This document shows positions 36,765 through 58,369 of a stretch of DNA of 64,000 bases, piece by piece. The stretch lies in contig JAJGOT010000216.1 in assembly GCA_022457155.1 (NCBI GenBank), forward strand, positions 883,501-947,500, given 5' to 3'. A program made the position numbers and the translations under genes. Each line of letters starts with the position of its first letter. Position 1 is the stretch's first letter. This DNA is from Cladopsammia gracilis. Taxonomy: Eukaryota; Cnidaria; Anthozoa; Scleractinia; Dendrophylliidae. Under the pieces are notes generated by a model. It was not told where the DNA came from. It worked only from the letters and a program-made list of their open reading frames with translations, and did no database searches.

Positions 36765-36935
36765 CCTAGTAATGGTAGATGACGCCCAGTGATGTTGGAT
36801 GATGCCTAGTGATGGTAGATGATGCCTAGCGATGGTAGGTGATGGTAGGTGATGTCTAGTGATGGTGGATGATGTATAGTTACGCTCGATTATGACAAGT
36901 GATGGTAAGCGATTTCTATTGATATTAGATGATGC
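36765..36935. repeat. 20-bp satellite tract 5
   Basis: Counterpart of tract 1. It joins gypsy coding sequence about 60 bp further downstream than in copy A, so the two copies have different satellite/pol breakpoints. Confidence 0.85.
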
Positions 36936-39830: not shown

Positions 39831-39942
39831 GAGGGGGAAGTGTGTACTAGTCACATAAAGAGGAACTCATTGTTGTTTCGCAGATAAGGACATAGTTGCC
39901 CTTTGTTTTAGTGATCGTTGTTCTTTTGTATTAAGTGACTTT
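39831..39942 (+). other. Polypurine tract and LTR start, copy B
   Basis: GAGGGGGAAG followed by TGTGTACTAG, matching copy A; satellite begins about 100 bp later. Confidence 0.6.
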
Positions 39943-41090
39943 GGGTGATGTCTAGTGATGTTGGATGATGCCTAGTGATGTTGGATGATGTCTAGTCAGT
40001 CTAATGACGGTAGAAGATGCCTAATGATGTTGGACGATGCCTGGTGATGGTAGGCGATGCATAATGATGGTAGATGATGCCTAGTGACATTGGATGATGC
40101 CTAGTGACGTTGAATGATGCCTAGTGATGCTGGATGATGTCTAGTGATGTTGGATAATGTCTAGTTTCGTTGGATGATGCCAAGAGATGGTAGGTGATGT
40201 CTAGTTACGTTGGATGATGCTAAGAGATTGAAGATGATGTCTAGTGATGTTAGATTATGTCTAGTTACGTTAGATGATGCCTAGTGATGCTAGATGATGC
40301 CAAAAGATGGTAGGTGATGTATAGTGACGGTAGATTATGTCTAGTGATGGTAGGTGATGTCTAGTGATGTCGGATGATGTCTAGTCAGTCTAGTGATGGT
40401 AGAAGATGCCTAATGATGTTAGACGATGCCTGGTGATGGTAGGCGATGCATAATGATGGTAGATGATGCCTTGTGACATTGTATGATGCCTAGTGACGTT
40501 GAATGATGCCTAGTGATGCTGGATGATGTCTAGTGATGGTAGGTGATGTCTAGTGATGGTAGATGATGTCTAGCGACGTTAGATGATGTATGGTTACACT
40601 AGATGATGCCAAGTGATAGTAGGTGATGACTAGTGATGTTAGATGATGTCTGGTGATGTTGGATGATGTCTAGTGACGTTGGATGTCTCGTAATGTTGGA
40701 TGATATCTAGTTACGTTGGATGATGCCTCGTAATGTTGGATGATATCTAGTTACGTTGGATGATGCCTAGTGATGCTGGATGATGTTTAGTTACGTTAGA
40801 AAGTGAGATACCTAGTGATGCTGGATGATGTATAGTTACGTTGGATGATGCCTAGTTATGCTGGATGATGCTTAGTGATGCTGGATTATGCCTAGTGATG
40901 CTGGATGATGTCAAGTTACATTGGATGATGCCTAGTTACATTGGATGATGCCTTATTAAGTTGGATGATGCCTAGTGATGATGAATGATGGCTAGTGATG
41001 CTGGATGATGCCTAGTGATGCTGAATGATGCCTAGTGATGTTGGATGATGCCTAGTTACGTTGGATGATGCCTAGTGATGCTGAATGATG
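39943..41090. repeat. 20-bp satellite tract 6
   Basis: About 57 units in plus orientation, interrupted at TGATG by the Polinton. The array resumes at 57,116. Confidence 0.93.
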
Positions 41091-41217
41091 AGTAGTGAGT
41101 GGGGGATGGCTCAAATACCGTTTTTCGAGGCCGTTAATTCGCGGGTCTCACTAAAGTTCGACCCGCGAATTAACGGCCTCGAAAAAACTGTATTTGAGCC
41201 ATCCCCCACTCACTACT
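41091..41217. repeat. Terminal palindrome, left end
   Basis: Arm 41,091-41,147 pairs with 41,160-41,217 around a 12-nt loop TCACTAAAGTTC. There is only one mismatch and one extra T in the T/A run. The outermost bases of the element are therefore repeated inverted 127 bp inside it, as in a hairpin-telomere junction. Confidence 0.9.
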
Positions 41218-41431
41218 GGACGGATCAGAGCACTCATAAACTGTGTTCGCGGCTAAATTTGCAACAGTTTTGGTAATTTCAAAGGCTCCCGCCTTTAAAA
41301 AACGTGTAAATTTCTTCGAAATTTTACCTCTACCTAAGAGGGGTGGGGTAAATGCATTTTTGCCCGAGCCGCCCGCAAACGGCAAGCTAGACATAACCGC
41401 CAATTGAAGAAAGGTAAAAACCTTGTATAAA
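41091..41431. repeat. Left terminal inverted repeat
   Basis: About 98% matching the reverse complement of 56,778-57,115; similarity extends through the CAATTGAA box and TTGTATA to the first gene's leader. The outer 127 bp form a palindrome. Confidence 0.9.
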
Positions 41432-41432
41432 G
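41401..41432 (+). promoter_or_regulatory. CAATTGAA-class promoter of the first left gene
   Basis: CAATTGAAGAAAGG at 41,401, then CCTTGTATA, with ATG 32 nt from the box. The same arrangement precedes the next two genes and polB. Confidence 0.6.
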
Positions 41433-41885
41433 GTGACAATGCCCTTCGTCAACGAACCAATGACTGCCGTTGCGTTTTTGAAAATGCGGGGAATTGAGTT
41501 GAAAGAAGGTGATGACTTGTATGCGAAGAACAAAGGGACGTTCGAATACAATCCTTGCAGACATTACGGCTTACACCTCACACAAGGCCATTCGCTTGTT
41601 GAGCATCAAAAATACGCTTGTAAGAAGCTGCGAACAGAACCCCGGCCGAAAGAGCTTTGTCTCGGCTGTAATCAAAGATTGTCTAGACAAACTGTTTCCC
41701 TACACTTTAAAAACGGCTGCCCGTCTTCGAAACGGTGTGTTCCCCCACGTTTTGTTCCTAACGTTTGTAATTATCCAAGCGTTCTAATAGTTCATAGCGA
41801 TGGATACGAATGTGTTGTACCTGAGAAAGATCTTGATTATTTTTTAGAAACTTATGACATAGTTTCTGTTAGCAAGGAATTTTAA
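41433..41885 (+). CDS. Putative zinc-binding protein, first left-end gene
   Basis: Open 150 codons. ATG lies 32 nt after the CAATTGAA box and 8 nt after TTGTATA. The mid-region ELCLGCNQRLSRQTVSLHF followed by C and C (CxxC, then H and C) resembles a single zinc finger. The rest has no recognisable fold. It sits just inside the left TIR with two other genes of the same promoter class, so an early or regulatory role is inferred. I do not recognise the family. Confidence 0.65.
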   Translation: MTMPFVNEPMTAVAFLKMRGIELKEGDDLYAKNKGTFEYNPCRHYGLHLTQGHSLVEHQKYACKKLRTEPRPKELCLGCNQRLSRQTVSLHFKNGCPSSKRCVPPRFVPNVCNYPSVLIVHSDGYECVVPEKDLDYFLETYDIVSVSKEF

Positions 41886-41916
41886 CACCTCTTGTGCGAA
41901 CGGGCTCCGTTATTAC

Positions 41917-41949
41917 CAATTGAATAAACGCTTACCCCTTGTATGCACG
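41917..41949 (+). promoter_or_regulatory. CAATTGAA-class promoter, second left gene
   Basis: CAATTGAATAAACGCTTACC then CCTTGTATG, with ATG 33 nt from the box. It is almost identical over 30 bp to the copy at 42,214, suggesting duplication of the promoter. Confidence 0.65.
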
Positions 41950-42168
41950 ATGGGGCGTGGAAGAAAAGGCATTGTTACTCAAAGCAGAAAAAAGATGACA
42001 AGAAGAAGGAAACCAGGATCACAATTCTTTCTTTCTGATCAACAAGAACCCATAAGAAGTAATTATGTAGATCATGTTGACCCCTACGCAGAACAACTAT
42101 TAGAACAAATGTCACCAGCACAGCTTTACTATCTTATGCTTCTAAAACAAGGAAACCTTTTTTCATAA
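41950..42168 (+). CDS. Small basic protein
   Basis: 72 codons from the ATG at 41,950 (MGRGRKG), chosen because it lies 33 nt after the promoter box; the frame extends upstream but only from a TTG. The N-terminal third is Arg/Lys-rich (SRKKMTRRRKPG), and the C-terminal half is predicted helical (YAEQLLEQMSPAQLYYLML). Nucleic-acid binding is plausible. The family is not recognised. Confidence 0.6.
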   Translation: MGRGRKGIVTQSRKKMTRRRKPGSQFFLSDQQEPIRSNYVDHVDPYAEQLLEQMSPAQLYYLMLLKQGNLFS

Positions 42169-42213
42169 GTTGAGAGGAGGAGATTCCTGTGCATAACTGG
42201 GCTCGGGTTTTAC

Positions 42214-42245
42214 CAATTGAATAAACACTTACCCTTCGTATATCA
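42214..42245 (+). promoter_or_regulatory. CAATTGAA-class promoter of the exonuclease gene
   Basis: CAATTGAATAAACACTTACC then CCTTCGTATATCA, with ATG ATG at 42,246 and 42,249. Confidence 0.65.
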
Positions 42246-43330
42246 ATGATGACGACAACACAATTGTTCTTGAACTTTCTCAAATCGAGGACCACTGGTC
42301 TGAAACAAAAGAGCGCCGACTGAGTGAGCTACCGACAAAATACTATTGGTGCATCCGAAATTGCAACCTTGACCGGAGTTTCGCCATTTGAAACACCAAA
42401 GAGCTTGCTCTTAAAGAAAATACAGCCAGCCGACATGCACAACAATACGGCCTGTACCTGGGGCAATCTGTTTGAGCCGCTCGCACGTAAGTACTTTGAG
42501 CAGAAGCATTGTGTTAGAGTTTTTGCTCACAGTATATCTATAAATCTAGCAACAGATCACCCATTATATCGAAAGGTCACATGCAGCCCTGATGGCTATT
42601 ATCTAGACAAAGAAAACACTTTAATTCTTTTGGAGTTCAAGTGTCCTTTCAAGCGGAAAATAGCTATGTCTCGAGTTCTTAGTTATTATGCAACCCAGCT
42701 ACAAACGGGTCTTTGTTTTAGCGGGGCTATGGTCAACAAAGGCCTTTTTGTTGATTCTTACTTCAGAATGTGCTCTATAAAACAGATAGAGCCAAGTTTG
42801 AATCATAATAATCTTCTAAACGGCGGAAATAAATACAAGACAAAGGGGCGCAATACACTCGCCTGGGGCATCTGTTATTTATTTTCAAAACAAAAGCTAA
42901 CAAGCAATCAAACCGAACTTATTGACATCGGCGCTCTTAAACAAACTCAGACGTTTGAGCAAATAATGTCTTCAATAGCCGAGAAAGACCTATGGTGTTC
43001 TTACGGCGCGGTTAGAATGTCGTTTAGCAAACAGTACGGAGACGAGAAGTATTTGCGGTACAACAGAATGAAAGGGGCTTTCCTTGCTCCAGACGAGGGG
43101 CCTAGACCGGTGGCAGTTTTCGTATGGAAATTATTGTCAAGAACGAGGAGTTCTTGAACAGTATTCAACCGAAGGTCGAGCGCTTTCACGAGAACTTGGC
43201 AAGTCTTCGCAAAAAAATACATGAAAATTTATCAAACCAAAACCAACTTAACACAACCATACCTGGTGAAACTTTTGAAGACAACATCGGCGATGGCAGT
43301 GCCCTGTTGGAAGCCTTTCTAATTGAGTAA
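42246..43330 (+). pseudogene. YqaJ/lambda-type exonuclease, disrupted
   Basis: The core (42,324-43,157) has IGASEIATLTGVSPFETP, WGNLFEPLARKYFEQKH, SPDG and LLEFKCPFKR, the ordered residues of the PD-(D/E)XK YqaJ/lambda-exonuclease fold used in recombination-dependent viral replication. The promoter-proximal ATG frame (42,246) hits TGA at 42,321-42,323 just before the core; a W and R pattern expected ahead of the core is in another frame. At about 43,120 the frame breaks again and a helical C-terminal segment (VKNEEFLNSIQPKVERFHEN) continues to 43,330 in a different frame. It probably acts with PolB when intact, and this copy is broken twice. Confidence 0.75.
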
Positions 43331-43388
43331 GCGGCAACGCTTACTCCAGATCTCGGAAAGCATTGTCCCATAAATGTTCGTTTTTAAT

Positions 43389-43709
43389 TCACATATTGTT
43401 TGACATCTGTTGTCTCAGGCAATTTACAAGCACTCGTTGCGGGGCTTCAAGCGGTATTGTAATGTCCAGGATCTTGTATATCACAAACGTATAAGAGATT
43501 CTCGGAAGCCGAGCTTGTATAAATTTGAAGGTGCGTTTCGTCTCATTGATTTGATCTAGAGTCAGTTTCACAGGCAGCAATTTGAGCTTATTGTTAAGCC
43601 GGGTCAAAGCATAGCCAAACGCATAACATCGCGCCGACTGGCTTTGCCTTGGCTTGTAAAAATTGTTTTGATCAGTATATGCCGGAGCATAATCCTCTAG
43701 AACTTCCAC
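43389..43709 (-). CDS. Unrecognised ORF, 106 codons
   Basis: An open frame without a good ATG or promoter motif (the first usable codon is GTG). It overlaps the 3' end of the adjacent membrane-protein gene in another frame. The composition looks protein-like (YAPAYTDQNNFYKP, LKLLPVKLTLDQI). It may be a 5'-truncated gene or the remnant of one whose start was lost. Function unknown. Confidence 0.35.
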   Translation of the reverse strand: MEVLEDYAPAYTDQNNFYKPRQSQSARCYAFGYALTRLNNKLKLLPVKLTLDQINETKRTFKFIQARLPRISYTFVIYKILDITIPLEAPQRVLVNCLRQQMSNNM

Positions 43710-44252
43710 ACGACCGCATTTTTTGGGGCTTTGTTTTGCCAGAACGGATTTCGTTCTTTATTTCGACCTCACGCAAGATGATTGCGAACTCTGAATCGCT
43801 GACCTTCTTGTCAGTTAGAGCCTTTGAAACCAGCTCACATACAGAGTTTCGTTTTGCAAGGGCGAGTGTATATATTTTCTCATGTTTCCTGATATTTTTT
43901 CGAGCTGCCTGCTAAACATAGTGAGGCCGGCCGCTGAAAAACCTGTCATAGCTGCCACGCCGGCAATAGCAGGGCTGGCTATGAGCCCGGCTCCTGTCAG
44001 AGCTGTGGCGATTGTTGCTGAAGACAAGCCTATAGAAATGAAACCAAAGCTTACTGCTGCTCCGTGAACAAAGGTGTGTGTTCGCTTGTATTTCTTAGAA
44101 ACTTGCCTGTAATGATTAGCCTCCGACTCAAGCTCCTTTTGCAAGTCAGAGATTTTCTTGAGTCTGAAGTCTTCACCGTTGGATAAGACTGGGTAAAGTG
44201 ATTGAGTCTCGCTGTATTCAGGAGCTGATGGCAACATGTTAGCCGAGCTCAT
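43697..44252 (-). pseudogene. Membrane protein with glycine/alanine-rich hydrophobic hairpin
   Basis: From ATG at 44,252 (TATA-like ATAATGTATAC lies just upstream) it has a charged coiled-coil stretch (ISDLQKELESEANHYRQV) and a long hydrophobic region (FGFISIGLSSATIATALTGA to GFSAAGLTMF), likely two membrane helices. The frame breaks near 43,880; the next-frame continuation (TLALAKRNSVCELVSKALTD) is well formed. A second break lies in the A-run near 43,722, and the last frame stops at 43,697. It is a likely virion or membrane-associated protein; function unknown. Confidence 0.6.
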
Positions 44253-44271
44253 GGTTTGTATACATTATATT

Positions 44272-44946
44272 TTAATTTATCTCAAGTTCAAATTCAAGAG
44301 GTATGTTATTGAAGTTGAAAAGGTCATTGTTCTCATCCCTCACAGACAGTGTTATGCTGTTTACATAATCACCAGACGAGACGTCACGCAATAGGTTCTG
44401 TTGTGTTGATTCATAGAAAACTTTCTCATATGGCTTTCCTCGAACGTCAAATTTAGCCAAAACAGTCGAAGGCTTACCGTTGAACAGGTTCTGTTATTTA
44501 TCTACCAGATCACAGTGGATAAAGTAAGTGCTTGGTGAGTCGAATTTTTTACTGGTTATATGTGGAAGCGTTTGTAGGTCCTTGCCAAACAATAATCTGA
44601 TATTATTGGAAAGACCTATTACATATTCGCCTCCTGGGTTCAAAATTGCCATAGCACCAAGAGGTGAATACGATTCCGCTTTAAGGTCTATAACCCGCTC
44701 TTCGTATTTGTCAACTATCGTTTTTGCTAAACTACTAGGAGTGTAAAAACTAGGATCAATGATGATTATAGTTGATTGGGCCTCCGAGCCTGATATTTTA
44801 ACAGATATTTGCCCTCTTTGTTTCAAATTATGCCACGTGTTGTAAAGTGAACAAGAAATGAGTCGGATGTAGCTCGGTTTCTGAAGAGGGTGATCGAAGT
44901 AGATGGTGTGAGGGTTCGAAGGTGCGACGATTGTTAACACAACCAT
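44272..44946 (-). pseudogene. Putative virion protein interrupted by a single in-frame stop
   Basis: Starts at ATG 44,946, 4-6 nt after TATATATATAC. Two open parts, 44,946-44,494 (150 codons) and 44,460-44,272, are in the same frame and separated only by TAA at 44,494-44,496. The combined length is about 224 residues. It is beta-rich (VLTIVAPSNPHTIYFDHPL at the start, NIPLEFELEIN at the end), compatible with a small jelly-roll or penton-like virion protein, but that is inference. Confidence 0.6.
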
Positions 44947-44986
44947 TGTGTATATATATAATTCATATAAATGTATTTATATAATC
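44933..44986. promoter_or_regulatory. Divergent TATA-type promoter
   Basis: TATATATATA at about 44,951-44,961 serves the minus-strand gene at 44,946, and TATTTATATAATC ends just before the plus-strand ATG at 44,987. The two genes start 40 nt apart, back to back. Confidence 0.6.
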
Positions 44987-46823
44987 ATGTTCGGCAGATG
45001 TCCAGGTGGTTTTAATCCTGGTTCAAATCTCGGTCTAGACATTGGCGGCCACGATTACGGACCCCCGCCCCCGTTTTTTCATCGTCCCCAAAATCCCCTC
45101 TATCAACACCCAACAACACAACCCACAGAAGATCCACAACTGGCTTGGGCGAGAACGCCAGAAGCCGCAAAACTCTCTACAGCGGCCAAGGCTAAGGCGA
45201 TCTCAGACTTCAAAAGGCGTTTCCCGCACGCTGATATGTCAAGATTTACAACAGACGTTTCTTTCGACGAAAATCACAAAGCTTCAGGAGAAGTGCTTTT
45301 CATAAAGGGCCCAGGCTCATGGGCTATGCCCTCAGACATACCGCACAAGAATTGGTCTCAAGCCCTGAAAGACGTTCTTGGCTTAGAGTATATTGGTGGG
45401 TTCCCTTATCAGTTGACGTTGAACCGAAACGCACAAAAACTAATCCCGGCTGTTGATTTCTCCACATCAATCGACAAGGATATGATGATTGGCTCAGTCT
45501 TGAACGATGAAGCGCAAAAGATCTATGTCACACCAACTGATTATTTCACAACGAAATACAGAAACATTTTCAGAGATACACAAATTTCGTTCAAAACCGC
45601 TAAATACGGCCGAAAGTGGCTCGGCGGTCCGCAAATGAGTTTCTGGCCACAACAACTGAACTTCGCTCTGTGGTGTGCAACAACCGGCTGCGGGATCTCG
45701 CGTGACCTTCTGTTTGATAAGAATTCTACTCTCTCCCTAACCCCGCAGCTCCGGTCATTTTACAGGTTTCACGTCTATTTCACAACAAGACGAATCCTCT
45801 CCAAGCTGGGTGGGAAACTGGGAAACAGAGCGTGAGTGCTTTGCCAGACGACCCCACATTCAACCAGAAAGACAACAAGTTCAACATCGACGCTTATAAG
45901 AGGGTTTGCCAAGAGTTCGGTGTCGACCCAAATTCTGACTTCCGTTTCACTTACGGTAAGAATCACGGCCTTGGCAATGTGTACATTTGGGTTACTGGAG
46001 GAGGGCAACATTTCTACCGATTACACCTATCCTGATCACGATCTAGCCCTGTTTGATGACGAGCGTGTGACCGACAGAAAAGACCCAAACTATCTCGCAA
46101 ACAGCATATCCTTCGTTCGTAGCGACCAAGGCGCGGTTAGTCAGTTTGAACACTTTGTACCGAATTATGCACAAGGGCTAACACAGCCAGGGCTCGCGCG
46201 TATGAACCAATCAATCGAGGCCTTTGTGTACTGCATTCTTGGTGCACAAGCAGACACTCGCAGCAGCATTCTTGGGAGTGGAGGGCGGGCGTTCGAAACG
46301 CAGAGAGTCTTCTTAACACTCTTAGAGGACGCCGTAAGACTGAATGACATATCTAAGAGCGTACAACATTATCAGCAGACCATCCAAGCAACAAAAGTGA
46401 GGCTAAACTTCGTGGTCGGCCCTGGGAGCTGGCTGATGCCGTCACGCATGGTTATCAACACAGAGAGCGTGGTGGGCTACAATAATAATCTTTTGCAGGC
46501 AACGCAAGGGATGAAGCTTGGTGTTAACAATGATGTCAATCTAGGCACAAAAAAGCATCCTTGCGCCCCATGGACGGTGGGCCGACAAAGATTAATCCCC
46601 AAACAGTCACCCATCGAACCCGATTCACAAACAGGCGACACAGGCACAGGGCATAGCGCCAAAAGCCCCACAACCAGCCACCAGCGCACCAGCCCCCTCC
46701 ACACCAGAGACCGCAAGTCCACAGACAACACCAGAGAGTGTCACAGATATGCATCACGCAAACAAGGCACTCATCGGAGTGGGTGCGCTTGCTTTGGCGG
46801 GCTTCGTTGCCTGGATGAGTTAA
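44987..46823 (+). pseudogene. Large structural-cluster protein with C-terminal membrane anchor, multiply frameshifted
   Basis: ATG at 44,987 (MFGRCPGGFNPG) directly follows TTATATAATC. A Pro/Gly-rich N-terminus leads to an open first part ending at 45,835 (MSFWPQQLNFALWCATTGCG, RFHVYFTTRRIL). The sense continues in a second frame (LPDDPTFNQKDNK), then a third from about 46,000 (EAFVYCILGAQADTRSSILG), then after about 46,550 a Pro/Ala-rich linker and a final hydrophobic segment ALIGVGALALAGFVAWMS stopping at 46,821-46,823. Length is about 610 residues if unbroken. The function is not established; the position beside the capsid genes suggests a minor virion protein. Confidence 0.6.
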
Positions 46824-47749
46824 CGCTTGCGTTTCAATGTCTTCTCTATCAAGAAGGCAGCCACGGCAAGGATAAGCAGCCAGGCGTTCTTGCCAAGAAA
46901 GCTGATCACTTGACCGGCCGTGCGAAACACAAAGCTTACGATGGCCCCCAGCAGACCTGGCAGAATGGAGGCAATCTTCTTACCCAGCTCTTGCAAACCA
47001 TTGCCAACGGCCTTACCAACTGTCTTTAACCCCTTTTGGAGGTTGCTAACGATAACACCGATTACTGTGCCCACAGCAGCCAAAACCCCCACCACGGTGA
47101 AGCCATATTTCTTGAAGGCCCTTTTCACTCTCTCGCGAAGGGAGAGTTTTTCCTCAAGTCGTTCTCTCTCGGCAGCAAGCTCTTCTCTTCTCTCGGTGTT
47201 TTCTTGCACCTTCTCCCTGGCTCGTTCACGGGTGGCGGGGTCTTCGTTTTCATCATTCGCAACTCTCTGATCTTCTTGGATGTTTCTGTTAACCACTTCG
47301 AATTCTTTATCCAGTTCCTCCAGTGCTTGTTGCGCTTCATCGTTATTTGGCCCAAGAATATTTCGTATTTCTTGTGGCATCTTGGTGTTAAAAGTTTTTT
47401 GGGTATCCCCCCTTGACAAAGTGTACACAGGGTACCATTTGTCTTTACCCAGCTTTCTAACCTCGAGGATAGCCTCTCCTGACCTTTTTGTTTCCCTGTA
47501 CCGAGCTTCAAGTTTAGAGTTATCCACAAGGGGAAATTCGTTCTCAATCTCCCTCATTGCAAACTCCTCTCTCATGGTCATTATTCGCCCTGAAGGGGTC
47601 CCCTCAATGAAAGAGGTTTCCTCAGCGCGTGAACCGCGTTCTGAGGGGCGATTCATTGTTGTCATCGGATAAGATTCACCCGAAAGCCCAGGTTGCGAGC
47701 CAGGGAGTGTAGTTTCGTCATCATCATGACGAGCATCAGTGTGCTCCAT
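46820..47749 (-). CDS. Coiled-coil, multi-pass membrane protein
   Basis: Intact 309 codons. Residues 1-130 are polar. Residues 140-210 are strongly charged coiled coil (EELDKEFEVVNRNIQEDQRV, RREELAAERERLEEKLSLRE). The last 90 residues hold hydrophobic helices (YGFTVVGVLAAVGTVIGVIV, LPGLLGAIVSFVFRTAGQVI, NAWLLILAVAAFLIEKTL) ending in KRKR. The gene converges on its neighbour: both stops lie in the shared TTAA at 46,820-46,823. It faces the capsid gene across a TATA-rich spacer. Probably a virion membrane or scaffold protein; no enzymatic motif. Confidence 0.75.
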   Translation of the reverse strand: MEHTDARHDDDETTLPGSQPGLSGESYPMTTMNRPSERGSRAEETSFIEGTPSGRIMTMREEFAMREIENEFPLVDNSKLEARYRETKRSGEAILEVRKLGKDKWYPVYTLSRGDTQKTFNTKMPQEIRNILGPNNDEAQQALEELDKEFEVVNRNIQEDQRVANDENEDPATRERAREKVQENTERREELAAERERLEEKLSLRERVKRAFKKYGFTVVGVLAAVGTVIGVIVSNLQKGLKTVGKAVGNGLQELGKKIASILPGLLGAIVSFVFRTAGQVISFLGKNAWLLILAVAAFLIEKTLKRKR

Positions 47750-47774
47750 AAGAGGATCTCTGTCTCCATAACCA

Positions 47775-47803
47775 TAAATATAAATTTATATATATATACT
47801 CTG
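47775..47803. promoter_or_regulatory. TATA-rich bidirectional promoter of the capsid gene
   Basis: AAATTTATATATATATACT ends 6 nt before the capsid ATG at 47,807. The opposite gene starts at 47,749. Confidence 0.6.
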
Positions 47804-47806
47804 GCT

Positions 47807-49032
47807 ATGGCTGTGCAACCAAACCTCCTCCCAACGAACGCAGAGAAGACTCTTGGTGCTATGAAAGCAGAGCGCACCGTAAAGCGCATCACATTTGATC
47901 GCTCTACAGCCAAGCCCGGCGAGACCCTGTACGTTTCGGTGCCCAAGCTCAACGAACATGAGGTTATCGTGTCGGGCTCGCTTGCCTTGCTCTTTAACAT
48001 CGACCTTGTCGGCGGTCACGCAAACAACTATCTTGTACAAAATGTCTCCAGAGCACTAGTTGACAGGCTCGTTGTCAAGTTTGCCGCCACCACTGTCCAG
48101 GATACCGTTGGGTATGATATTTACAAAATCTTTGAGGACCTCTTCCTTTCTTAGACAAGAGAGACAACATGCTCCCCGAGGGCATATAGAGTTTAGTTTT
48201 GAGCAAGATTCGCTCTAATGCCGGCGACAAGAAGACCTCTGGCGTGGATGCGGAAAACAAGCTGGAGACCATTTACAAAAACAAATACCGCATCAATCTT
48301 GACCACCAGATTCTAACAGACCCAGTGTCATGTACCCACAAGACTCTACAACGATTTGATATTCGAGAACGCTCGCCCCTGCTTCTCAAGTTGTCAAGGG
48401 TTCGGATACAAGAAAGCTTGTGTACAAGGTGACAAATATCCAGCTTGAGTACGAGACAATCCGAAGTAAACAGCTGGCTGACGAGGCAGCAAGTGTATAC
48501 TCTAGCGGAAAGGAGTTTGCCTACGACCATAGCATGCGAGAGGAAGTGGTCCCCTTCTCGAAGGGTTCAGACGCACGGCTGAATCTCAGGGTGAACCCGC
48601 AGCGCAGGTCACTGAAAGCCATCCTTCTGCTATTCATCGAACCCTACACGGCAGGAGCCAGGGACTCAGAAAAATACTTCAACCCAGACATAACCAAAGT
48701 TAATGTCACCATAAACGGCTCCCCCAACAGGATTTACAACGAAGGCATCAACGGGACCGACATGTGGGGTGAGGTCAGCCGACTCTTCAAAAAGAGGGGT
48801 GATGGCAGGCCCAACATGAATCTAACCAAATATCTCACGGGCAACAAGTTCGGCCTCCTTATCGACCTTAGATCAATGGCTGATACAACCCTACATGGCA
48901 ACGGTCAACGCCTTGTCAACACAAAGGACGGTGTACATCTTGAGATCGGGAAACGTGCACTGCCACATATACACCATCAGCGACTCACAGATGAACATCA
49001 TGGACAGGCAGCTGCAGGCGGTTCAGTATTAA
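47807..49032 (+). pseudogene. Major capsid protein (double jelly-roll type), frameshifted
   Basis: The ATG at 47,807 (MAVQPNLLPTNAEKTLG) follows the TATA run. I recognise the Polinton capsid family from VSVPKLNEHEVIVSGSLALL, VGYDIYKIFEDLFL, YSSGKEFAYDHSMREEVV, SDARLNLRVNPQRRSLKAIL and LLIDLRSMADTTLHGNGQRL. Breaks occur near 48,150, at a TAG about 48,187, near 48,325-48,365 and near 48,950. The final frame stops at 49,030-49,032, 16 nt before the ATPase ATG. Length of about 408 codons is normal for the family. It builds the icosahedral shell in related viruses. Confidence 0.8.
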
Positions 49033-49048
49033 ACGCACACATATAGGA

Positions 49049-49648
49049 ATGGATCCAAGAAAGCTGCCATTCAATGCACTAATTATCGGGCCGACTAACT
49101 CTGGCAAAACACAATATCTTCTGAATCAGTTGCGCGGCCCCTTCAGGGGCAAGTTTGACTATATTGTTCTCTTCTGCCCAACATTTGTCCACAACAAGAC
49201 ATATGATGGCTTCGTGGACAAGGAGCCACGCATGTTCGTGATAGACTGTCAGCAGCATGAGATTGAAGCCTGGTTAACTTTAGCCTGTTATTACTTCGAC
49301 GGGACAAACACGCTCTTTGTGCTCGATGACTGTGCTGCTTCGAAGGATGTGAAAGGTCGCACAAGTCAACTTGTGAAACTAGTCTTCAGTGCTCGCCACA
49401 GCGGCTTGTCGGTGTGGGTGCTAACCCAACAGTTAACCAGCATTGCGAAACCCTTTAGGGAAAACGTCGCAGCGATCGTGCTTTTTTACACCCCATCAAG
49501 CAAAACAACGAAGGCTATCTTCGATGACTATGCCGGTGAGCTTAAACATCAACAGTACAAAGAGTTGATTGCAAAATTAAAGGAGCGCAAATTTTCTCAC
49601 CTAGTCTTCTCTCTGCGACATCCCTATGGGGTTGAAGTGAAAATGTGA
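49049..49648 (+). CDS. A32/FtsK-HerA-like DNA-packaging ATPase
   Basis: Intact 199 codons. Walker A GPTNSGKT at residues 14-21, Walker B LFVLDDC ending at residue 95, and a sensor-like SVWVLTQQLTS segment. Small size and these motifs match the Polinton/adenovirus-like packaging ATPase that drives DNA into capsids. It directly follows the capsid gene, with CACATATAGG just before the ATG. This is one of the best-preserved genes, suggesting recent activity. Confidence 0.9.
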   Translation: MDPRKLPFNALIIGPTNSGKTQYLLNQLRGPFRGKFDYIVLFCPTFVHNKTYDGFVDKEPRMFVIDCQQHEIEAWLTLACYYFDGTNTLFVLDDCAASKDVKGRTSQLVKLVFSARHSGLSVWVLTQQLTSIAKPFRENVAAIVLFYTPSSKTTKAIFDDYAGELKHQQYKELIAKLKERKFSHLVFSLRHPYGVEVKM

Positions 49649-49653
49649 AAACA

Positions 49654-49670
49654 TATATATACGCTGTGCC
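49654..49670 (+). promoter_or_regulatory. TATATATAC late-type motif
   Basis: TATATATAC at 49,654-49,662 with ATG at 49,671. Confidence 0.6.
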
Positions 49671-49910
49671 ATGAACACCTCAACCAGTATCCACAAGCTC
49701 ACGGTCTTTTCACAGCTTCTTGGTGAATTGCAGAATCATGCGGAGGAGATGCAAATACAGATAATCAAAGCCGCTAACGCGGATGATCTGTGCCTCATGC
49801 TTCTTAGCCGCTATCCTTTGAAACTCACTGTGTGCCCAGACACCATGACAGCGCTTATAAGTGAGGTTAAAAGTCTTTTGCCTAACATCAAGAAAATAAT
49901 TGAAAAATAA
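49671..49910 (+). CDS. Small helical protein
   Basis: Intact 79 codons between two TATATAC motifs. Mostly predicted helix (VFSQLLGELQNHAEEMQIQI, TALISEVKSLLPNIKKIIEK) with no zinc or enzyme motif. Family not recognised. It sits in the structural cluster, so a small virion or assembly factor is inferred. Confidence 0.6.
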   Translation: MNTSTSIHKLTVFSQLLGELQNHAEEMQIQIIKAANADDLCLMLLSRYPLKLTVCPDTMTALISEVKSLLPNIKKIIEK

Positions 49911-49918
49911 ATACATAA

Positions 49919-49928
49919 TATATACGCA
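49919..49928 (+). promoter_or_regulatory. TATATAC late-type motif
   Basis: TATATAC at 49,919-49,925, ATG three bases later at 49,929. Confidence 0.6.
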
Positions 49929-50935
49929 ATGGCAACAAACCTCCCAGAAGACGTGGCCGCATTTGATATTGAAATCATGCAGCTGCTAGGGGCAGAGCCT
50001 GATAGCTCCTTGCCATCAGCGATTCCTGAAGTCTTAACAGGTAATGACACTCCAGCTCAACGCGAGAAACTGGCAGTCCTTGTTTCAACCGGAAAATCAA
50101 AAGAGGTCATCGGTGCCCAGCTCACACACGAGCAGGTGAAGCGCCTGACGGATAAACAGGTTGAAAAGTACTACAAAAGGTATGAAGCCTATGTAGGCAA
50201 CAAGACGACCGAGTCTCTGATTGACAGCGTTATAATGCTCGTAACCAAAGGCACCGGCATGGTTGTTAAGATTGACGATGTGGAGGCACTGCAGAAAGAA
50301 CTCAAAAATGACTACATGATTAACCATGAACTGTCAACTCTTGTAGGAAACTTTGCACTTGTTTTGATTACTACAAAACACATCGACTTCAAAAAGGAGC
50401 CAGAAGAGTTGCCTCCTCAACCTTCTCCACCTGTACACCCAAGCAGAGATGGGGAAGGTTATCCACTCGAGGGTTTTGATGAAGTTGACACATAATCTGA
50501 AAGGAACCTGGCAGGAACCTGGCAGGAACCACGAAGGAATCTTGTAGTACCTGAAGAAACAGTCGCGCTAGCACCCACAACCAACACACACGTTACCTCT
50601 GATACCCCAAAGACTGCTCCAGCCAAAACCCCTGGTCGTGTTGCTTCTGGCAAAAGGCTTGCTGAACGCAACCGGGCAAGAGAGGCAAGAAAACAAGCAC
50701 AAGCTTCTAAGGCAACAAACGAGCCCGGCACAAACTCGGCACCCCAAAACTCGGCAACACAGCATTTCTCATTCTTGGTGTTGTCGGGGTGATTGTATCC
50801 GCTTGGGGCGTCTATTACCAACGCGAGGCCATTATGAATACACTTAGGCGCAAAGCCCCGACCCCTGCGCCTGTAGAGGTGAATGAAGTTCAAACTCCTC
50901 CACCACCGAGACGAAGAATTCGCGAGATGGAGTAA
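49929..50935 (+). pseudogene. Structural-cluster protein with C-terminal membrane segment, stop and frameshift
   Basis: From ATG 49,929 the frame is open to TAA at 50,493-50,495, then continues in the same frame through a Thr/Pro/Ala and Arg/Lys-rich stretch (RVASGKRLAERNRAR). It shifts near 50,757 to a hydrophobic segment FLILGVVGVIVSAWGVYYQR and a proline-rich tail ending at 50,935. Next to the stop is a tandem GGAACCTGGCA repeat, a possible cause of the break. The N-terminal half is helical (QLTHEQVKRLTDKQVEKYYK). Function unknown; a membrane-anchored virion protein is plausible. Confidence 0.55.
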
Positions 50936-50944
50936 AAAAAATCT

Positions 50945-50958
50945 TATATATACACACA
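50945..50958 (+). promoter_or_regulatory. TATATATAC late-type motif
   Basis: TATATATAC at 50,945-50,953, ATG at 50,959. Confidence 0.6.
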
Positions 50959-51096
50959 ATGCCGAATCTCTTTCAAGTCTTCGTAAGCTCGGCTGCAATC
51001 GGAGGTATTCTTTTTGCTACGCTTGAATTCAACGCTGTCGCCCTAAAAACAGTTTGGCAAATAGTAACACATGACGAGGAGCAGAATGAAAATTAA
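50959..51096 (+). CDS. 45-residue hydrophobic peptide
   Basis: ATG 50,959 to TAA 51,094-51,096. MPNLFQVFVSSAAIGGILFA is hydrophobic, followed by a polar acidic tail (THDEEQNEN). It has its own TATATATAC motif 5 nt upstream of the ATG and is followed at once by the next promoter. Probably a single-pass membrane peptide. Family not recognised. Confidence 0.55.
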   Translation: MPNLFQVFVSSAAIGGILFATLEFNAVALKTVWQIVTHDEEQNEN

Positions 51097-51101
51097 AATC
51101 T

Positions 51102-51115
51102 TATATATATACACC
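51102..51115 (+). promoter_or_regulatory. TATATATATAC late-type motif
   Basis: TATATATATAC to 51,112, ATG at 51,116. It overlaps the end of the upstream gene's trailer. Confidence 0.6.
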
Positions 51116-51313
51116 ATGTCTGACAACAAGCTCGTGAAAGCTGTTCTTGATGCGGCCACAATCCCTGGCCTTGTCGCAAGTATTGCCTGGGTTGGCAAAA
51201 AGGTCGTCAAGGAAAATCTCACGGCCGACCCCAGTTCGAATCTCATGAACTATGTGAAGTTCACTGCCGTCATGGCTGGGAGCATCGCTCTTAAGAAATA
51301 CCTCGAGGACTAG
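51116..51313 (+). CDS. 65-residue membrane-associated protein
   Basis: The ATG at 51,116 (MSDNKLVKAVLDAATIPGLV) is chosen because the TATATATATAC motif ends 3 nt before it. A longer frame upstream runs through that motif. Two hydrophobic stretches (IPGLVASIAWVG and FTAVMAGSIALKK) suggest membrane association. Function unknown. Confidence 0.6.
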   Translation: MSDNKLVKAVLDAATIPGLVASIAWVGKKVVKENLTADPSSNLMNYVKFTAVMAGSIALKKYLED

Positions 51314-51338
51314 AAGATCCTCCCTGCCTCAATGTAAA

Positions 51339-51352
51339 TCATATATATATAG
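51339..51352 (+). promoter_or_regulatory. TATATATATA late-type motif
   Basis: CATATATATATAG, with a longer 20-nt leader before the ATG at 51,373 than for the other late genes. Confidence 0.5.
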
Positions 51353-51372
51353 CAACGGCCTCAATCGCTATT

Positions 51373-51783
51373 ATGGTTGGCGGAGCAATTTTGAATGCTG
51401 CCGCTTTCACTGGGGGCAATTATCTCGCAAAATATCTTTCCGGCGACAACGGACAAGCCGCTCTGGATGAGGAGACCAGACACGACAAGGCGTTAGAGGC
51501 CTATCAAGCAGCCTACGCTAAATATCAGAAAGACCGCACAAAGCTCCTCGACTGGATTGCCAGCAATGATCGGATCAAAGATCAAGCGAAACACAACTTT
51601 CAAGACACTGACCAAGCTCTGGTGCTCTACAACCAAACACATCGAGAGCAGCAAAAAACACTCCCCAAAGAGCCAGAGTTCTCTGACTTCTATAAACCTG
51701 GCCTACAGCAGAAGCAAGGCGAACTCTTGTTTAACGGCACTGGCGCACTCGCCCTTGGCTATGCGGCGTTTCGCTTTCTGTAA
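51373..51783 (+). CDS. Conserved structural-cluster protein
   Basis: Intact 136 codons. A glycine/alanine-rich N-terminus (MVGGAILNAAAFTGGNYLAK), a charged helical middle (EETRHDKALEAYQAAYAKYQ), and a hydrophobic C-terminus (GTGALALGYAAFRFL). No enzymatic motif. It ends 7 nt before the integrase start. A virion role is inferred from position only. Confidence 0.65.
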   Translation: MVGGAILNAAAFTGGNYLAKYLSGDNGQAALDEETRHDKALEAYQAAYAKYQKDRTKLLDWIASNDRIKDQAKHNFQDTDQALVLYNQTHREQQKTLPKEPEFSDFYKPGLQQKQGELLFNGTGALALGYAAFRFL

Positions 51784-51790
51784 AACACAT

Positions 51791-52780
51791 ATGTATATGG
51801 GGACGAAACTCTCAAAGATCTATTACAGCCCCAAAGGATACTGGAAAGGACTTGCCGCTGTCAAAAAGCTAGCTGCAGCAGCCAAGGTCTCTGATGATGT
51901 CGCAAAGAAATGGCTCGTCAAACAAGCCCTTTGGCAAATATATCTCCCTGCACCACGACATATCCCTAGGCCCAAGTTTGATGTTCAAACTCCTAATGCC
52001 GTGCATCAAGCGGATCTACTTTTTTTTGCCACACGACAAACTGCCTCATGGGCGAAAGATTTACAAATATGCTTTGACAGTTGTTGATGTAGCAAGCCGT
52101 TACAAAGCAACAGAGCCCTTGACTTCGAAAGAGTCTGATGAAGTTTCGAAGGCGTTGTCCCGGGTATATAGGCGTAGGCCTTTGAAATGGCCACGACTTT
52201 TGCAAGTAGACCCGGGGACAGAGTTTATGGGAGCTGTGACTAAAGAGATGGGGGCTCATAAAACAACCATTCGTCGTGGACGTGTTGATATCCACAGAGA
52301 CCAAGGAATTGTTGAAAGATTCAACAGAACCCTGGCTGAACGATTGTTTGGTTACCAGTATGCATTTGAAATGAATTTGCCCTCTGGCCGTTCGACTGCT
52401 TGGGTTAAAAGATTGCCAGATGTTGTCTCGGCCTTGAACAATGAAGTGACCCGGCTGACTGGAAAGAAGCCTGCTCAAGCAATCAAGCAACCTCAGCCAA
52501 GCCCGCAACCCCATATTTGAGACCAGTGGGGGTGAATGAGAAGAAGCTCCCTCCTCGGGTTAATTTGCGATATCTGTATTACCCCGGTGAGCTTGAGGGG
52601 GGTAGTCGACGGGCGACGGATCCGATCTGGTCCTTGAAGGTTTACAACATTGAGAAGGTTGTTACCAAACCAAACGAGCCTGTCGTGTATTACTTGTATG
52701 ACGGACCGAAGCGCGGGTTTGTCCGTGAAGAATTGATGGTTGTGCCGCCGGGCACTCAGTTGCCACCAGCTGGGTTGTGA
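51791..52780 (+). pseudogene. RVE-family integrase, two frameshifts
   Basis: Starts at ATG 51,791 or 51,797 in CATATGTATATGGGG. The N-terminal helical region (KGLAAVKKLAAAAKVSDDVA) resembles an HHH zinc/HTH region. The catalytic DDE is complete: D in HQADLLFF, D in LLQVDPGTEF and E in DQGIVERFNRTLAE, with classical D-D-35-E spacing. The first break is in the T8 run 52,020-52,027 and the second near 52,490. The C-terminal part (LRYLYYPGELEGGSRRATDP, GFVREELMVV) resembles the small barrel domain of Polinton integrases. It inserts the element into host DNA. Confidence 0.85.
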
Positions 52781-52965
52781 AAAAGTACTGTTGCAATCTG
52801 CTCTTTAGAGATGCTTTTTAAGGCTTCTATCTGTCTCGGGGAAAAAGATGAAGCCTTAGCGGCAGGCTTGTGTGCATTCTTGTGGGTGGCGAAATAGTAG
52901 CCATCACCAAAGTTTTTTGCCTTTCTTTGTGATGTAGTGAAGTACCCGCTTCTTCCTCGCCCCAT
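52756..52965 (-). CDS. Small basic protein next to polB
   Basis: 69 codons. ATG at 52,965 lies 8 nt after GTATATC on the minus strand. The N-terminus is basic (GRGRSGYFTTSQRKAKNF) and the C-terminus amphipathic (FSPRQIEALKSISKEQIATV). It overlaps the integrase 3' end by 25 bp on the opposite strand. Family not recognised; nucleic-acid binding is possible. Confidence 0.5.
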   Translation of the reverse strand: MGRGRSGYFTTSQRKAKNFGDGYYFATHKNAHKPAAKASSFSPRQIEALKSISKEQIATVLFHNPAGGN

Positions 52966-52995
52966 GTTGTGATATACTAGGGGAGTGTCTTTTGT

Positions 52996-55900
52996 TCAGT
53001 TGGCCGTGTGAAACTCGATTGGTTCTGTGTGGATACCGTCTGGCAGCACCCAACGCTTGTCGTAGTAGGCGCTGAGGCCCAGCTTGTGCTGCTGATATGT
53101 GAACATGGCCCCGTTGTGCATTCGAAAGCCCTTGTTGGTGGCCATGTCCCTGCCCCCTTGCAGGGCTCTTTCGTACCTATCCCAGCGAAGCTCGTTCTGC
53201 TTCTTGTTGACGCCCTTGGAGGACATCTTGGCCCCTCCGCCAGCCTCGTTTTCTACGTAATAACACTTGCTGCACAGGGCGATGGCCCGTGTACCTTCCT
53301 TCTTAAGCTTGAATAAGCCCAGCTCTCTACCGCTCCACTTGTCCCACACCAACCAATTCTTCTTCCCAGCCTCGAACTGGTCGCGAAGTTCTGGGCGAAC
53401 TGCTTCTTCGAGAGTGTCGTGAGCAAGAGCGAAGTACATGCTATCTGTGTCCATCTGGATAAGCTCGAAGTCGCGCCTGTCGATGAAGTAATCAAGGAAG
53501 TCGTAATAGAACTCCAGCATGCGGTGCTTGGCAAGTTGACACACAACAATGCCGACTTGAAAGGGGCGGTCGATTGTGATCTTTTGCTTGCGCAGCTCGA
53601 TCTTGTAGGCCTCTCCGATCTCTTCGAGGTCTTCGAACAAGGGTGAGCGGAGATTCTTGTCGACCTTGTCCTCGTCAGTTGTGTACAACGTTCTTGTTTG
53701 CCGCTCCACGGCTTCGATGAACTTGCCGTACGCACTGTTGCCAAGCAGCTTGAACACTTCGGCAAGCAGTGCCTTATCCTTGTCAGCATCGCCTTTCCTT
53801 CGGTTGTCGGCGACCTCGCGAACGAACCAGTCGAAGAGCTTTTTGGGTCTATAATCGATCGTGCGGTAGACTGCCGTGATCTTGAACCCACTGTTGAGGT
53901 ACCATTTCAAGAGGGTGCGTAGATAAGCATCTTTTTCGCTGACAACACACCCAGAAGCTTTTTCTGATCGGGAAAGCGGGTTCGGCCACTTTCTTGGAGG
54001 TAAGCGTGCATATGCTGAGGCACGCATTCGTTAGGCACTGGTTGGTTGATGAAGAACGGGGGAAACTCTTCGAACTGCTCCCACAACTCTCGAGGGACTT
54101 CGATGTCCACCTCCGCAAACTCGAACCACCTGCCTATGAGAAGGGGAAGGGAAATATTGCTAGCCGCTTGTACCGGGTCATTGTAATGCACAACCTTCTC
54201 TTTACCACAGGGCATCTCCTGCAGCATCGTGCTGGGGTAAAGAGAATTCGCATCGAACCCCACAACCCGTTTCGTGATGCGGGCTAAGTCGTATTTGTGA
54301 AAGCGAATGCGGGTTTCACCGCGCACGTGTTTGCGAGTGAAGACCAGGCTTGGCCCTCCAACCACAGCCCCCTTCAGCATGGCGTATGCTTCTGAGCCGG
54401 GCGCGTATAGTTCTGGAGCCCTGCGGCCCCGTCCCCCTCTCAATGAGCCTCGCAAGACGTATTGCATTGATACTCCTGGCAAGGAGACCGCGTCTTTGAA
54501 GATGTCAACCCCGAGGCTCGTGTAAAAGCCCTTCATCGTTTGGAGAGCTTCGAGGAAGGGAGACACGTCTAGATTGTTGTAATACTCCAGCCAGTCTCCG
54601 AATGTCTGCATACCTTTCTCGTGAAAGATGCGATTGCATTTCTCGTGCTCCTTGGGAGAAAGAACAAAGGCGTTTTTGAGTTGTGAGTACCAGCACTCGT
54701 ATGGGGGGAGTCCAGGGTAATCAAGCTTGTCAGCACTGTCAAACCACTCGTATGGGAGCCAGGACTTAGTCTGTGTCGCTCCATACATCTTGACCCACCT
54801 ATCGTACGTAATACCTGGGGGCAAATAATTCACGATGTCCAAGAACTTGTAGCTGGGAGTGTTGATGAACATGATGCGTCCCTGTTTCTCCGCGGCGAAG
54901 ACCTCGTTCTCTTGAGCAAAGTGAGAAACAAAGTACTTGCGGATAAGCCTGAGATCGTAATGCCCTGAGTTGAAGCCGACCACAGGGACTTGGTTGCACC
55001 ATTTGTCGATGAGCTTGAGTTGCTTCTCAGGGAGATTCTCAAGGTCTGGGGGCATATATTGGTCAGCCACAGCCTCTCGGATGGTTTCGGCACGCCACTC
55101 AAGGGAGGCATAAAACAGCCCGATAAGCTCGTCAGGGTCTTTGGAGCAAATGTACTCAGGCTCAGGGTTCAGCGTGTCGGCAATGGATACTGAGATGGGC
55201 ACATGTTCGCTTTCATAAGAGAGCCAGTATGTCGGACGAGCTGCGTTGGTCTTGTCCTGATACGCTTCGAAGTCGTAGACGATCGCGTGTGGATAAGTTT
55301 TGTTTCTTTTCTGTGGGCAACGGTCATTCAACCAGGGGTAAGGCCTTTCATGCTCCCACCTTTCAACCACGGTGTAACCGGCGTCTCGAAGCAACTGAGT
55401 TTGTTGCAGAGTCTTTTGGTAAGCAACCATCCTTGTGATTGTGTTGCCCCTTCGGTCAACATATACAACTTCGTCCCTCGTGCCCTCGGGGTAACACTCC
55501 TCGCAACCATGCCAGAAACAACCGTGAAACTGAAAAACTGTCCTGCTTTCTGGGTGATAGCCGTCGACTGGGGCCCCACAAATATAGCTCTCACCGCCAT
55601 GGCCACATCTGTGATGGTGAATGTGAATGCCGGCCTGTTTCGCCTCCCACTCGAGCCAGCACACTGCCTTGACACCGAAACCGCCTTCTGGGTAAAAGGC
55701 TTTCTCAAAAGCTGACTCCGGAGGGAGGACACGTTTCCCAGGACAGTCGAATTTTGTTTGACCTCGAGTACACGTCTTGGCGTGGCGAGTTAAATGACAA
55801 GCTTGTGTGAACCTCCCCCCACACTCACCACAAGTGTAATTGTTTGTGACTTTATTGAGATTGGTGATCAAGAAGGCATGGCCTGCATAGATACCGACAG

Positions 55901-56773
55901 TCATGGTTGAAGCGCCCACCTTGTCGTAATTAGCAGGGTTGTGAGATAAAAGGAATTCACCATTCGGGAGAACAAGGTAGGCGGCAATGCCTTGCTTGAA
56001 ATGCTTTTCGATTTTGGAAAAGTGCGCAAAGTTAGCTGGTCTCGAAGCCCCGGATAAAAGGCCAAGAAGCTTTCCGCGAGTTCTCTGGTTCTGCGGGTGT
56101 TGCGATCTCTGCGAGCTCCTCGATGGACAGCCAAGCAACGAAAGAGACAAAGATTATCATTGAAATTGTCAAGGGCAATGACTTCTCTTTTATTGCGAAG
56201 CCAATCAGGAAGCCACCCGAGGCCTATTTGCAGCGGTTGTCGATCAAGCACGACTTTTAGATCAAGCAGGACAGTGCATTCGTAAACCCATTTGGTGTCA
56301 GGCCTGTTGAGGTTTGCGTTTTGAAGACGAAGCTCTTCCTGGACTTGCAACCACTGTCGTGTCTCGGAGAGAGTGGCTAGCCAACGACTGTAGTGGCTGT
56401 TTTGATAAAACTGCCTCAACTCCTCGGTTTCAGTGTTTCGTAACTCGACTGTGAACCGTAAATTGATTGCATGCCGTGTGTGAACATTTTGTTTGATTTT
56501 GTTCAAAATTCTGGCGACAAGGGGTTTTTCGAGATCATTGATTAAACGAAACCGGATTATTCGTCTGCCGCGGTCAATCCATCGGTCAACCCGATCATAG
56601 ACTTGAACAAATTGTTCAAAAGCTAACTCCTGTGGGTTGTTTTGAGGCTCGACCTCAGCATTATTGTCGTCGGCAGGCTCGAACCGCTCAAGATTTCGTG
56701 CCTGTTCGTCCAGCCAGGCAATCAGATCGCGTTGATCGTCATCACGGTGTCTTCGTTGTCGGGGTTGCGCCAT
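52996..56773 (-). pseudogene. Protein-primed type DNA polymerase B, two frameshifts
   Basis: About 1,258 residues. ATG at 56,773 has TATATACGCA just before it and CAATTGAA 35 nt upstream. The N-terminal region holds NDNLCLFRCLAVHRG (residues about 206-219), like an OTU-type cysteine motif. The frame shifts near 56,040. Then a CGECGGRFTQACHLTRH zinc finger (about 55,830), a Vsr-like nuclease pattern VDGYHP...FQFHGCFWHGC (55,570-55,500), ExoI YDFEAYQD, ExoII FNSGHYDLRLI, PolA FDANSLYPS (54,257). After a shift near 53,915 come motif B KLLGNSAYGK and motif C MDTDSMYFA (about 53,450). All catalytic residues are present. It replicates the element. Confidence 0.88.
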
Positions 56774-56808
56774 TGCGTATATACAAGGATTTTACCTTTC
56801 TTCAATTG
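56774..56808 (-). promoter_or_regulatory. CAATTGAA-class promoter of polB
   Basis: On the minus strand CAATTGAAGAAAGG starts at 56,808, then CCTTGTATATACGCA runs to the ATG. It is the TIR counterpart of the 41,401 promoter, so the two outermost genes share a promoter by virtue of the TIR. Confidence 0.65.
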
Positions 56809-57115
56809 GTTATGTCTAGCTTGCCATTTGCGGGCGGCTCGGGCAAAAATGCATTTACCCCACCCCTCTTAAGTAGAGGTAAAATTTCGAAGAAATTTAC
56901 ACGTTTTTTAAAGGCGGGAGCCTTTGAAATTACCAAAACTGTTGCAAATTTAGCCGCGAACACAGTTTATGAGTGCTCTGATCCGTCAAGTAGTGAGTGG
57001 GGGATGGCTCAAATACAGTTTTTTCGAGGCCGTTAATTCGCGGGTCGAACTTTAGTGAGACCCGCGAATTAACGGCCTCGAAAAACGGTATTTGAGCCAT
57101 CCCCCACTCACTACT
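56778..57115. repeat. Right terminal inverted repeat
   Basis: Reverse complement of the left TIR with a few substitutions (for example CTACCTAAG against CTACTTAAG) and a short indel before the CAATTGAA box. Confidence 0.9.
56989..57115. repeat. Terminal palindrome, right end
   Basis: 127 bp, loop GAACTTTAGTGA, the exact reverse complement of the left loop, so both ends read outward identically. Confidence 0.9.
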
Positions 57116-58350: not shown

Positions 58351-58369
58351 GGTGATGCAACTTGGCGGC

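Follow-up and report, generated by a model that had tools for sequence, protein, structure and literature searches.

The 16-kb Polinton carried by this stretch of DNA raises the question of why both its ends are palindromes, and whether such an element folds back its ends at some stage of its life. The window (the whole stretch analysed, 64,000 nucleotides) holds a degraded copy, whose features are collected in Table 1. A first-pass annotation had described the outermost 57-58 bp as repeated in inverted orientation 12 nt further in, with one mismatch and one bulged base, at both ends, and this was confirmed by alignment and folding. The 127-bp imperfect palindrome occupies the outermost part of each terminal inverted repeat (TIR). 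At the left, a 57-nt outer arm is followed by a 12-nt loop, TCACTAAAGTTC, and a 58-nt inner arm. Folded as a single DNA strand, the 127-bp end reached -68.6 kcal/mol, with 56 pairs, one mismatch and one bulged base (z = -21 compared to 200 shuffles). The right 127 bp (56989-57115) are the exact reverse complement of the left 127 bp, and the two TIRs differ at 3 positions over 306 bp, with divergence beyond. That the left loop is the reverse complement of the right one, also pointed out in the annotation, is true on the plus strand but uninformative, as it follows from the TIR; both hairpins share one orientation relative to the element.

Table 1. Features of the Polinton and its termini, in window positions
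Feature	Position	Strand	Remarks
Polinton, 16-kb	41091-57115		Degraded copy, PolB in broken frames
Left 5-bp target duplication TGATG	41086-41090		Adjoins left terminus
Left TIR	41091-41396	+	306 bp
Left terminal hairpin	41091-41217	+	Outer arm 41091-41147, loop 41148-41159, inner arm 41160-41217
ORF with YqaJ-like recombinase domain	42324-43157	+	Pfam E 7e-15
Packaging ATPase, Pox_A32 family	49049-49648	+	Pfam E 1.7e-13
rve integrase core	51894-52520	+	E 3.6e-5; 24.4 bits, below the Pfam cut-off of 32.6
PolB C-terminal piece, DNA_pol_B_2	52996-54027	-	E 4e-8, above the Pfam cut-off
PolB main piece	53907-56150	-	Weak C2H2 and Vsr-like matches, below cut-off
Putative PolB N-terminal piece	55901-56773	-	Other frame; resembles start of aligned homologues by eye
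Right TIR	56810-57115	-	306 bp
Right terminal hairpin	56989-57115	-	Inner arm 56989-57046, loop 57047-57058, outer arm 57059-57115
Right 5-bp target duplication TGATG	57116-57120		Adjoins right terminus

Each of the four arms has one occurrence of the outer 20-mer, and the rest of the window has none at up to 3 mismatches (shuffles: 0). Other palindromes of the window reach similar or higher self-alignment scores (for example near 35946 and 6826), so that palindromicity alone is not decisive; location at both termini and recurrence are. At 36046-36626, two adjoining tandem arrays in inverted orientation apparently form a long palindrome (score 292 near 35946).

The element has the traits of a Polinton: a PolB of the protein-primed type, an rve integrase (weak match), an A32 ATPase and TIRs of the form AGTAGT...ACTACT. 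A frame break separates the PolB C-terminal piece from the main piece, which is 62-72% identical to its homologues among the matches listed, and DNA_pol_B_2 was detected in 21 of 22 aligned PolB sequences (E 0.1). The putative N-terminal frame has no Pfam match and terminates ~340 bp inward of the right end of the Polinton. The Vsr match is weak (E 0.011 in the window PolB; 7 of 22 alignment members at E 0.1), and nicking by this part of PolB at the stem asymmetry described below is a mere idea. Two segments of the majority sequence in the PolB alignment, CLFRCIAVH and GHAFLI, presumably belong to a vOTU domain. The predicted structure of the PolB piece had a mean pLDDT of 37.5, too low to use, and comparison with solved structures gave zinc-finger matches only, at chance level. 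Among the subset of window ORFs scanned, no convincing Pfam match to a maturation protease or capsid was found, and no Rep/NS1-like domain (HUH nickase). The viral_contigs set, searched with two DNA patterns and with PolB (single sequence and alignment), yielded no relatives.

The Polinton sits within a 20-bp minisatellite that borders it on both sides (39941-41098 and 57123-58358) and is also present at 3074-3778, 32099-33408 and 34840-35318. The window further contains two copies of a pol region that we take to be Ty3/Gypsy-like (316-2909 and 36933-39725, with rve at 38394-38906). Sixteen tRNA matches of varying score, all on the minus strand between 8287 and 61225, are perhaps tRNA-derived repeats, and two closely related minus-strand ORFs (15025-15783 and 28416-29627; 252 and 403 aa) represent a repeated gene or element.

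Recurrence was examined in two samples of the host genome (G000, 878 Mb; the window lies on contig C501). A search with the 127-bp palindrome gave at least 91 matches (40 of 49 candidates scored), and the similarity set comprised 40 ends, 38 of them fetched from 26 other contigs, plus the 2 window ends. All 40 fold into a terminal hairpin. Type A (16 ends, including both window ends) has a stem of ~57 bp and the loop TCTCACTAAAGTTCGA or near; types B/C (24 ends) have a stem of ~80 bp and the loop CTCATTGCATT(T)CG or near. The centre is altered in two ends, L018 being without the tip and L030 without part of the inner arm. Across the sample, intact ends form imperfect palindromes of ~127 or ~182 bp (up to 184) that extend to the last base.

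The second sample, anchored on PolB and blind to the palindrome, consisted of the best 60 of 3725 PolB candidates, that is, the 60 copies closest to the window, with distant Polintons outside its scope. Six were already in the similarity set, and the other 54 were fetched to ~1 kb past the PolB start. A full hairpin was present at 49 of these 54 ends and a remnant at the remaining 5: L066 retains outer arm and loop without the inner arm, L055, L069 and L085 keep the inner arm but have lost the outer side (the cut being at the loop in L055 and L085), and in L071 ~42 nt of outer arm adjoin the PolB start region in inverted copy. The first-pass annotation had proposed conservation of the palindrome in relatives as a check, and conservation is what both samples gave. 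It had also raised the possibility of relatives with the same genes and simple, non-palindromic TIRs, of which there are none in the best 60 of 3725 PolB copies of the host genome, and that of a local assembly duplication, ruled out by the presence of the architecture on many contigs. More generally, an assembly artefact was rejected, because many contigs carry the structure together with target duplications. An independent mini-element at each end is likewise unsupported, a hairpin or remnant being found at 54 of 54 ends reached from PolB. These data support the conclusion that the terminal palindrome is general among the sampled copies of the window's Polinton family, and that it is kept as a paired structure.

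The best 60 PolB copies are mostly 88-91% identical in protein to the window copy; 56 of the 60 have an open frame of more than 1000 aa, and 12 of the 60 have stops within the match. With 3725 PolB candidates (best 60 scored), this looks like a large recent Polinton expansion. Some ends are peculiar. In L071 (G000:C1013:1274940-1275860), the inverted PolB-start copy is 305 bp long and near-perfect, a fold-back rearrangement at the element end. L055, L085 and L066 are broken at or beside the loop, which could mean that the tip was opened ahead of integration or that a palindrome in the genome broke. L044, L045 and L046 (C1097, C894 and C827) have identical hairpins and related AT-rich flanks, owing to a duplicated locus or a shared target repeat.

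We then considered how the ends are joined to the target. An exact 5-bp duplication lies directly outside AGTAGT...ACTACT in all 15 elements read at both termini, and none has a duplication of 4, 6 or 7 bp. One terminus carries a changed base in C383 and in C19; C1435 and C707 have flanks in common, leaving 14 independent elements of 15, and C458, truncated at its right end, was omitted. The window duplication is weak evidence by itself, because its flanks are TGATG-rich minisatellite, but the 14 other elements agree. Duplications at the outermost base in 15 of 15 elements imply integration of opened full-length ends, not of a junction; the suggestion made in the annotation, that the integrase acts on a junction, is thereby left without support, and junction integration was rejected. 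Full-length opened ends were joined to a 5-bp staggered target. The 6-bp target duplication that is typical of Polintons, without defining them, was not found, the length being 5 bp in 15 of 15. Duplications of 5-7 bp are reported for related elements in the part of PMC7805220 available, and of 6 bp for vertebrate Mavericks in that of PMC8097293. At G000:C609:47083-53604, just 6.5 kb separate two hairpin ends flanked by a 5-bp duplication, possibly a shortened mobilised derivative.

The arm sequences vary among copies yet remain complementary. In type A (16 rows, 13 distinct), 96.6% of cells are paired and both sides have changed in 17 of 57 pairs; the values for types B/C (22 rows, L018 and L030 omitted) are 97.9% and 15 of 81. 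None of 500 shuffles, which ignore the relatedness of copies, reached the observed values, and slid structures gave 0-4 pairs changed on both sides. Further pair types were within the shuffle range for type A (288/500) and above shuffles for B/C (3/500). The PolB-anchored ends, 47 of 54 of which were caught by the script motif (missed were the five partial ends, L080 and L099), provided 38 distinct type-B hairpins. There, 100 cells had changed in both arms and were paired, 2 had changed in both arms and were unpaired, and 37 had changed in a single arm (outer only 16, inner only 21). Pair 74/110 was seen as GC, AT, TA and CG. Several of these changes are transversions without wobble intermediate that were compensated in closely similar copies, and they point to templated copying rather than slow selection. 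Mixed hairpins, with the outer arm of one allele and the inner arm of another, were also found (L079, L090 and L092). In the window hairpin, the outer 36 nt are identical to the outer arm of several type-B ends, the core is of type A, and the inner arm is an almost perfect complement of the type-B-like outer arm; it is probably a chimera, the arms of which were matched up afterwards. The covariation would be compatible with folding of either strand, at any stage.

We consider it very improbable that the stem-loop acts as RNA, regulatory or as a small-RNA precursor. A long hairpin, if transcribed, could be processed, but one-sided G-U changes are in no clear excess over A-C: G-T and A-C mismatches numbered 28 vs 21 in one count and 3 vs 8 in another (38 distinct type-B hairpins), as expected for DNA, not RNA. 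In addition, in all 15 elements read at both termini the end of the stem coincides exactly with the integrated terminus, and the hairpins belong to no Rfam family at the gathering threshold. Only a slim chance is given to the arms being paired protein-binding sites in double-stranded DNA (for an integrase, packaging or origin protein), with selection on site symmetry and not on folding. The terminal AGTAGT/ACTACT and TCAAA/TTTG, which could be such sites, are among the most constant segments of both arms; the paired changes, however, span the whole stem (57 or 81 pairs), and the cores are unlike.

The two ends of one element tend towards the same allele. Left and right hairpins were 92.9-100% identical in 12 two-ended elements, except for C756 and C1044, where one hairpin centre is partly deleted (74 and 86%, respectively); the next 60 nt beyond the hairpin are just 66.7-85% identical in C294, C304, C457, C697 and C756. 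For type A, identity was 92.9-100% within elements and 82.7-88.2% between them. For type B it was mostly 96.7-98.9% within an element, slightly above the value for left ends of different elements (mean 96.0%, range 93.4-98.4); copying from end to end is therefore argued from type A and from the shared alleles. The outer-arm allele was the same at both ends in 25 of 37 element pairs, taken from among the matches listed (opposite strands of the same contig; target duplication checked only for C1150); when the right ends were re-dealt 5000 times, such agreement averaged 4.5 pairs and never exceeded 12. In C1150, an unusual C-G pair is present in all four arms (both arms of L091 and L111). Mismatches common to both ends (window element, C609) indicate that arm correction is incomplete.

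The annotation had named both loop orientations, alongside conservation of the palindrome, as support for its idea. Inverted loops do exist, but nowhere near parity. Among 94 ends read, 89 have the standard loop (88 by pattern and L059 by eye, remnants included), 2 the inverted one (L074 and L095), and 3 are without a whole loop. Genome-wide, arm type GGGAGTCAAAT gave 148 standard vs 3 inverted loops (backward controls: 0), and equal flip/flop was rejected for this one arm type. Type A had no inverted loop in the count, and the 16 type-A ends read are all standard. In C19, a single insertion with a 5-bp duplication, one end is inverted and the other standard. In all three inverted cases (L074, L095 and L110 of C650), the tip alone is turned and the stem base is not. 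The stem base has a small asymmetry: 59 of 74 looped type-B ends were measured (the script measured the other 15 incorrectly), of which 57 had 21 nt outside and 22 inside and 2 had 21/21. By eye, 11 of 16 type-A ends had one nt more inside, 1 had two more and L042 one less; the asymmetry was absent in both window ends and in L043. Among the 59 measured type-B ends, none is inverted over the whole stem. A simple rolling hairpin would be marked by whole-end inversion at parity, which is absent in the copies sampled.

These data bear on two further explanations. One is hairpin transfer as in parvoviruses or poxviruses, where a closed or self-priming fold would be nicked at the stem base, recopied and inverted at each cycle, and the inversion would be masked by polarised resolution, as reported for the left end of minute virus of mice. 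The architecture is like that of parvoviral termini, rare inverted loops occur, and the one-base asymmetry is there in 57 of 59 measured type-B ends; a flip-only left hairpin was suggested by earlier studies for the LuIII minus strand, although the available text of the paper citing them doubts this (PMC1185569). With 3 inverted vs 148 standard loops, 0 of 59 measured type-B ends inverted over the whole stem, a polymerase of the Polinton type described as protein-primed, and the subset of ORFs scanned devoid of a Rep/NS1-like domain, we find it unlikely. The other is passive quasipalindrome correction by template switching at each copying, only the outermost bases being of importance for mobility. 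Palindromes are known to self-correct, and this process could yield equal arm matching without any function; the way the arms match, with four base-pair types at one site, resembles it. It nevertheless appears distinctly unlikely, as all of the best 60 PolB copies (60/60) have a long stem and loop or its remnant, types of dissimilar core included, and the one-base asymmetry persists despite correction.

On balance, and from integrated copies in a genome assembly, we lean towards the reading that the end of the window's Polinton family is a functional terminal DNA hairpin, which folds and lets arms and ends be rewritten during replication. Ends that fold as DNA would be expected to give paired change of the arms, end alleles in common, hairpins of mixed alleles and inversions of the tip alone. 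Extrachromosomal replication would most likely resemble that described for other Polintons, with a terminal protein priming strand displacement. Once displaced, the single strand would fold its ends into terminal hairpins, and its two ends could pair with each other as well. Copying or mismatch repair over the folded stem would rewrite one arm from the other, and end-to-end pairing would rewrite one end from the other, such that the four arms co-evolve. The hairpin would in this way restore and protect the terminal sequence required by the polymerase and the integrase. The asymmetric stem base and the standard loop would be retained since opening normally does not turn the end over, and occasional nicking and recopying inside the stem would invert the tip alone, producing the rare inverted loops. 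Polinton PolBs have been described, in the text available of PMC11071308, with a terminal-protein and a vOTU domain; taken together with the folding-type signals, this suggests protein-primed ends that also fold. We infer the role of the hairpin, the stage at which it would fold and any closure of the ends from sequence. Possible but doubtful is a bolder version, in which this Polinton lineage combines protein priming with genuine hairpin telomeres, the four arms being intercopied at each cycle and the base asymmetry blocking turning over. Such a lineage, if this version is true, would stand as a living intermediate, with protein-primed linear genomes on one side and parvoviruses and large DNA viruses, with their hairpin telomeres, on the other.

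Compared to known systems, the element is like other Polintons/Mavericks in its PolB, rve integrase, A32 ATPase and TIRs, and shares the terminal (AGT)2//(ACT)2 motif with vertebrate Mavericks (PMC8097293, as far as available) and perhaps, given a weak match (E 0.011), the VSR-like insertion in PolB with Polinton group I (PMC10328495, likewise). It differs from them in that the TIR starts with a ~127-184 bp palindrome and that the duplication is of 5, not 6 bp. In titles and abstract starts of the Polinton, Maverick and polintovirus literature, none of the matches listed deals with palindromic ends.

Like the termini of the parvoviruses AAV, MVM and LuIII, those of the window family have an imperfect terminal palindrome, then a non-palindromic repeat, a small stem asymmetry and an occasional inverted tip; unlike them, they have one dominant orientation and are accompanied by PolB and integrase genes, with no nicking Rep in the ORFs scanned. 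Telomeres of poxviruses, ASFV and chloroviruses are incompletely paired terminal hairpins beside inverted repeats, closed and in flip/flop forms, whereas the window family is known from integrated copies, with no orientation parity. Streptomyces telomeres also join palindromic ends to protein priming, which in the window family is assumed by analogy, and are the nearest precedent found for palindromes with a terminal protein; according to the available part of PMC4513846, their palindromes are short and several in number and lie in a 3' overhang that is patched once internal replication is over, unlike the one long hairpin on an integrating element seen here.

Bidnavirus ITRs resemble those of our family in going with a Polinton-type PolB and TIRs, but are reported, in the text available of PMC4061559, as not forming hairpins; the same source has bidnaviruses proposed to be a combination of parvovirus and Polinton, and the present finding therefore bears on the kinship of hairpin-ended and protein-primed DNA viruses. 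As of 2021, the extracellular form of Polintons had yet to be detected (PMC7805220, available part); many similar copies, exact termini and a covarying hairpin make the free form directly testable. The terminal-hairpin architecture is more than a local oddity, and suggests free DNA folding back its ends during copying.
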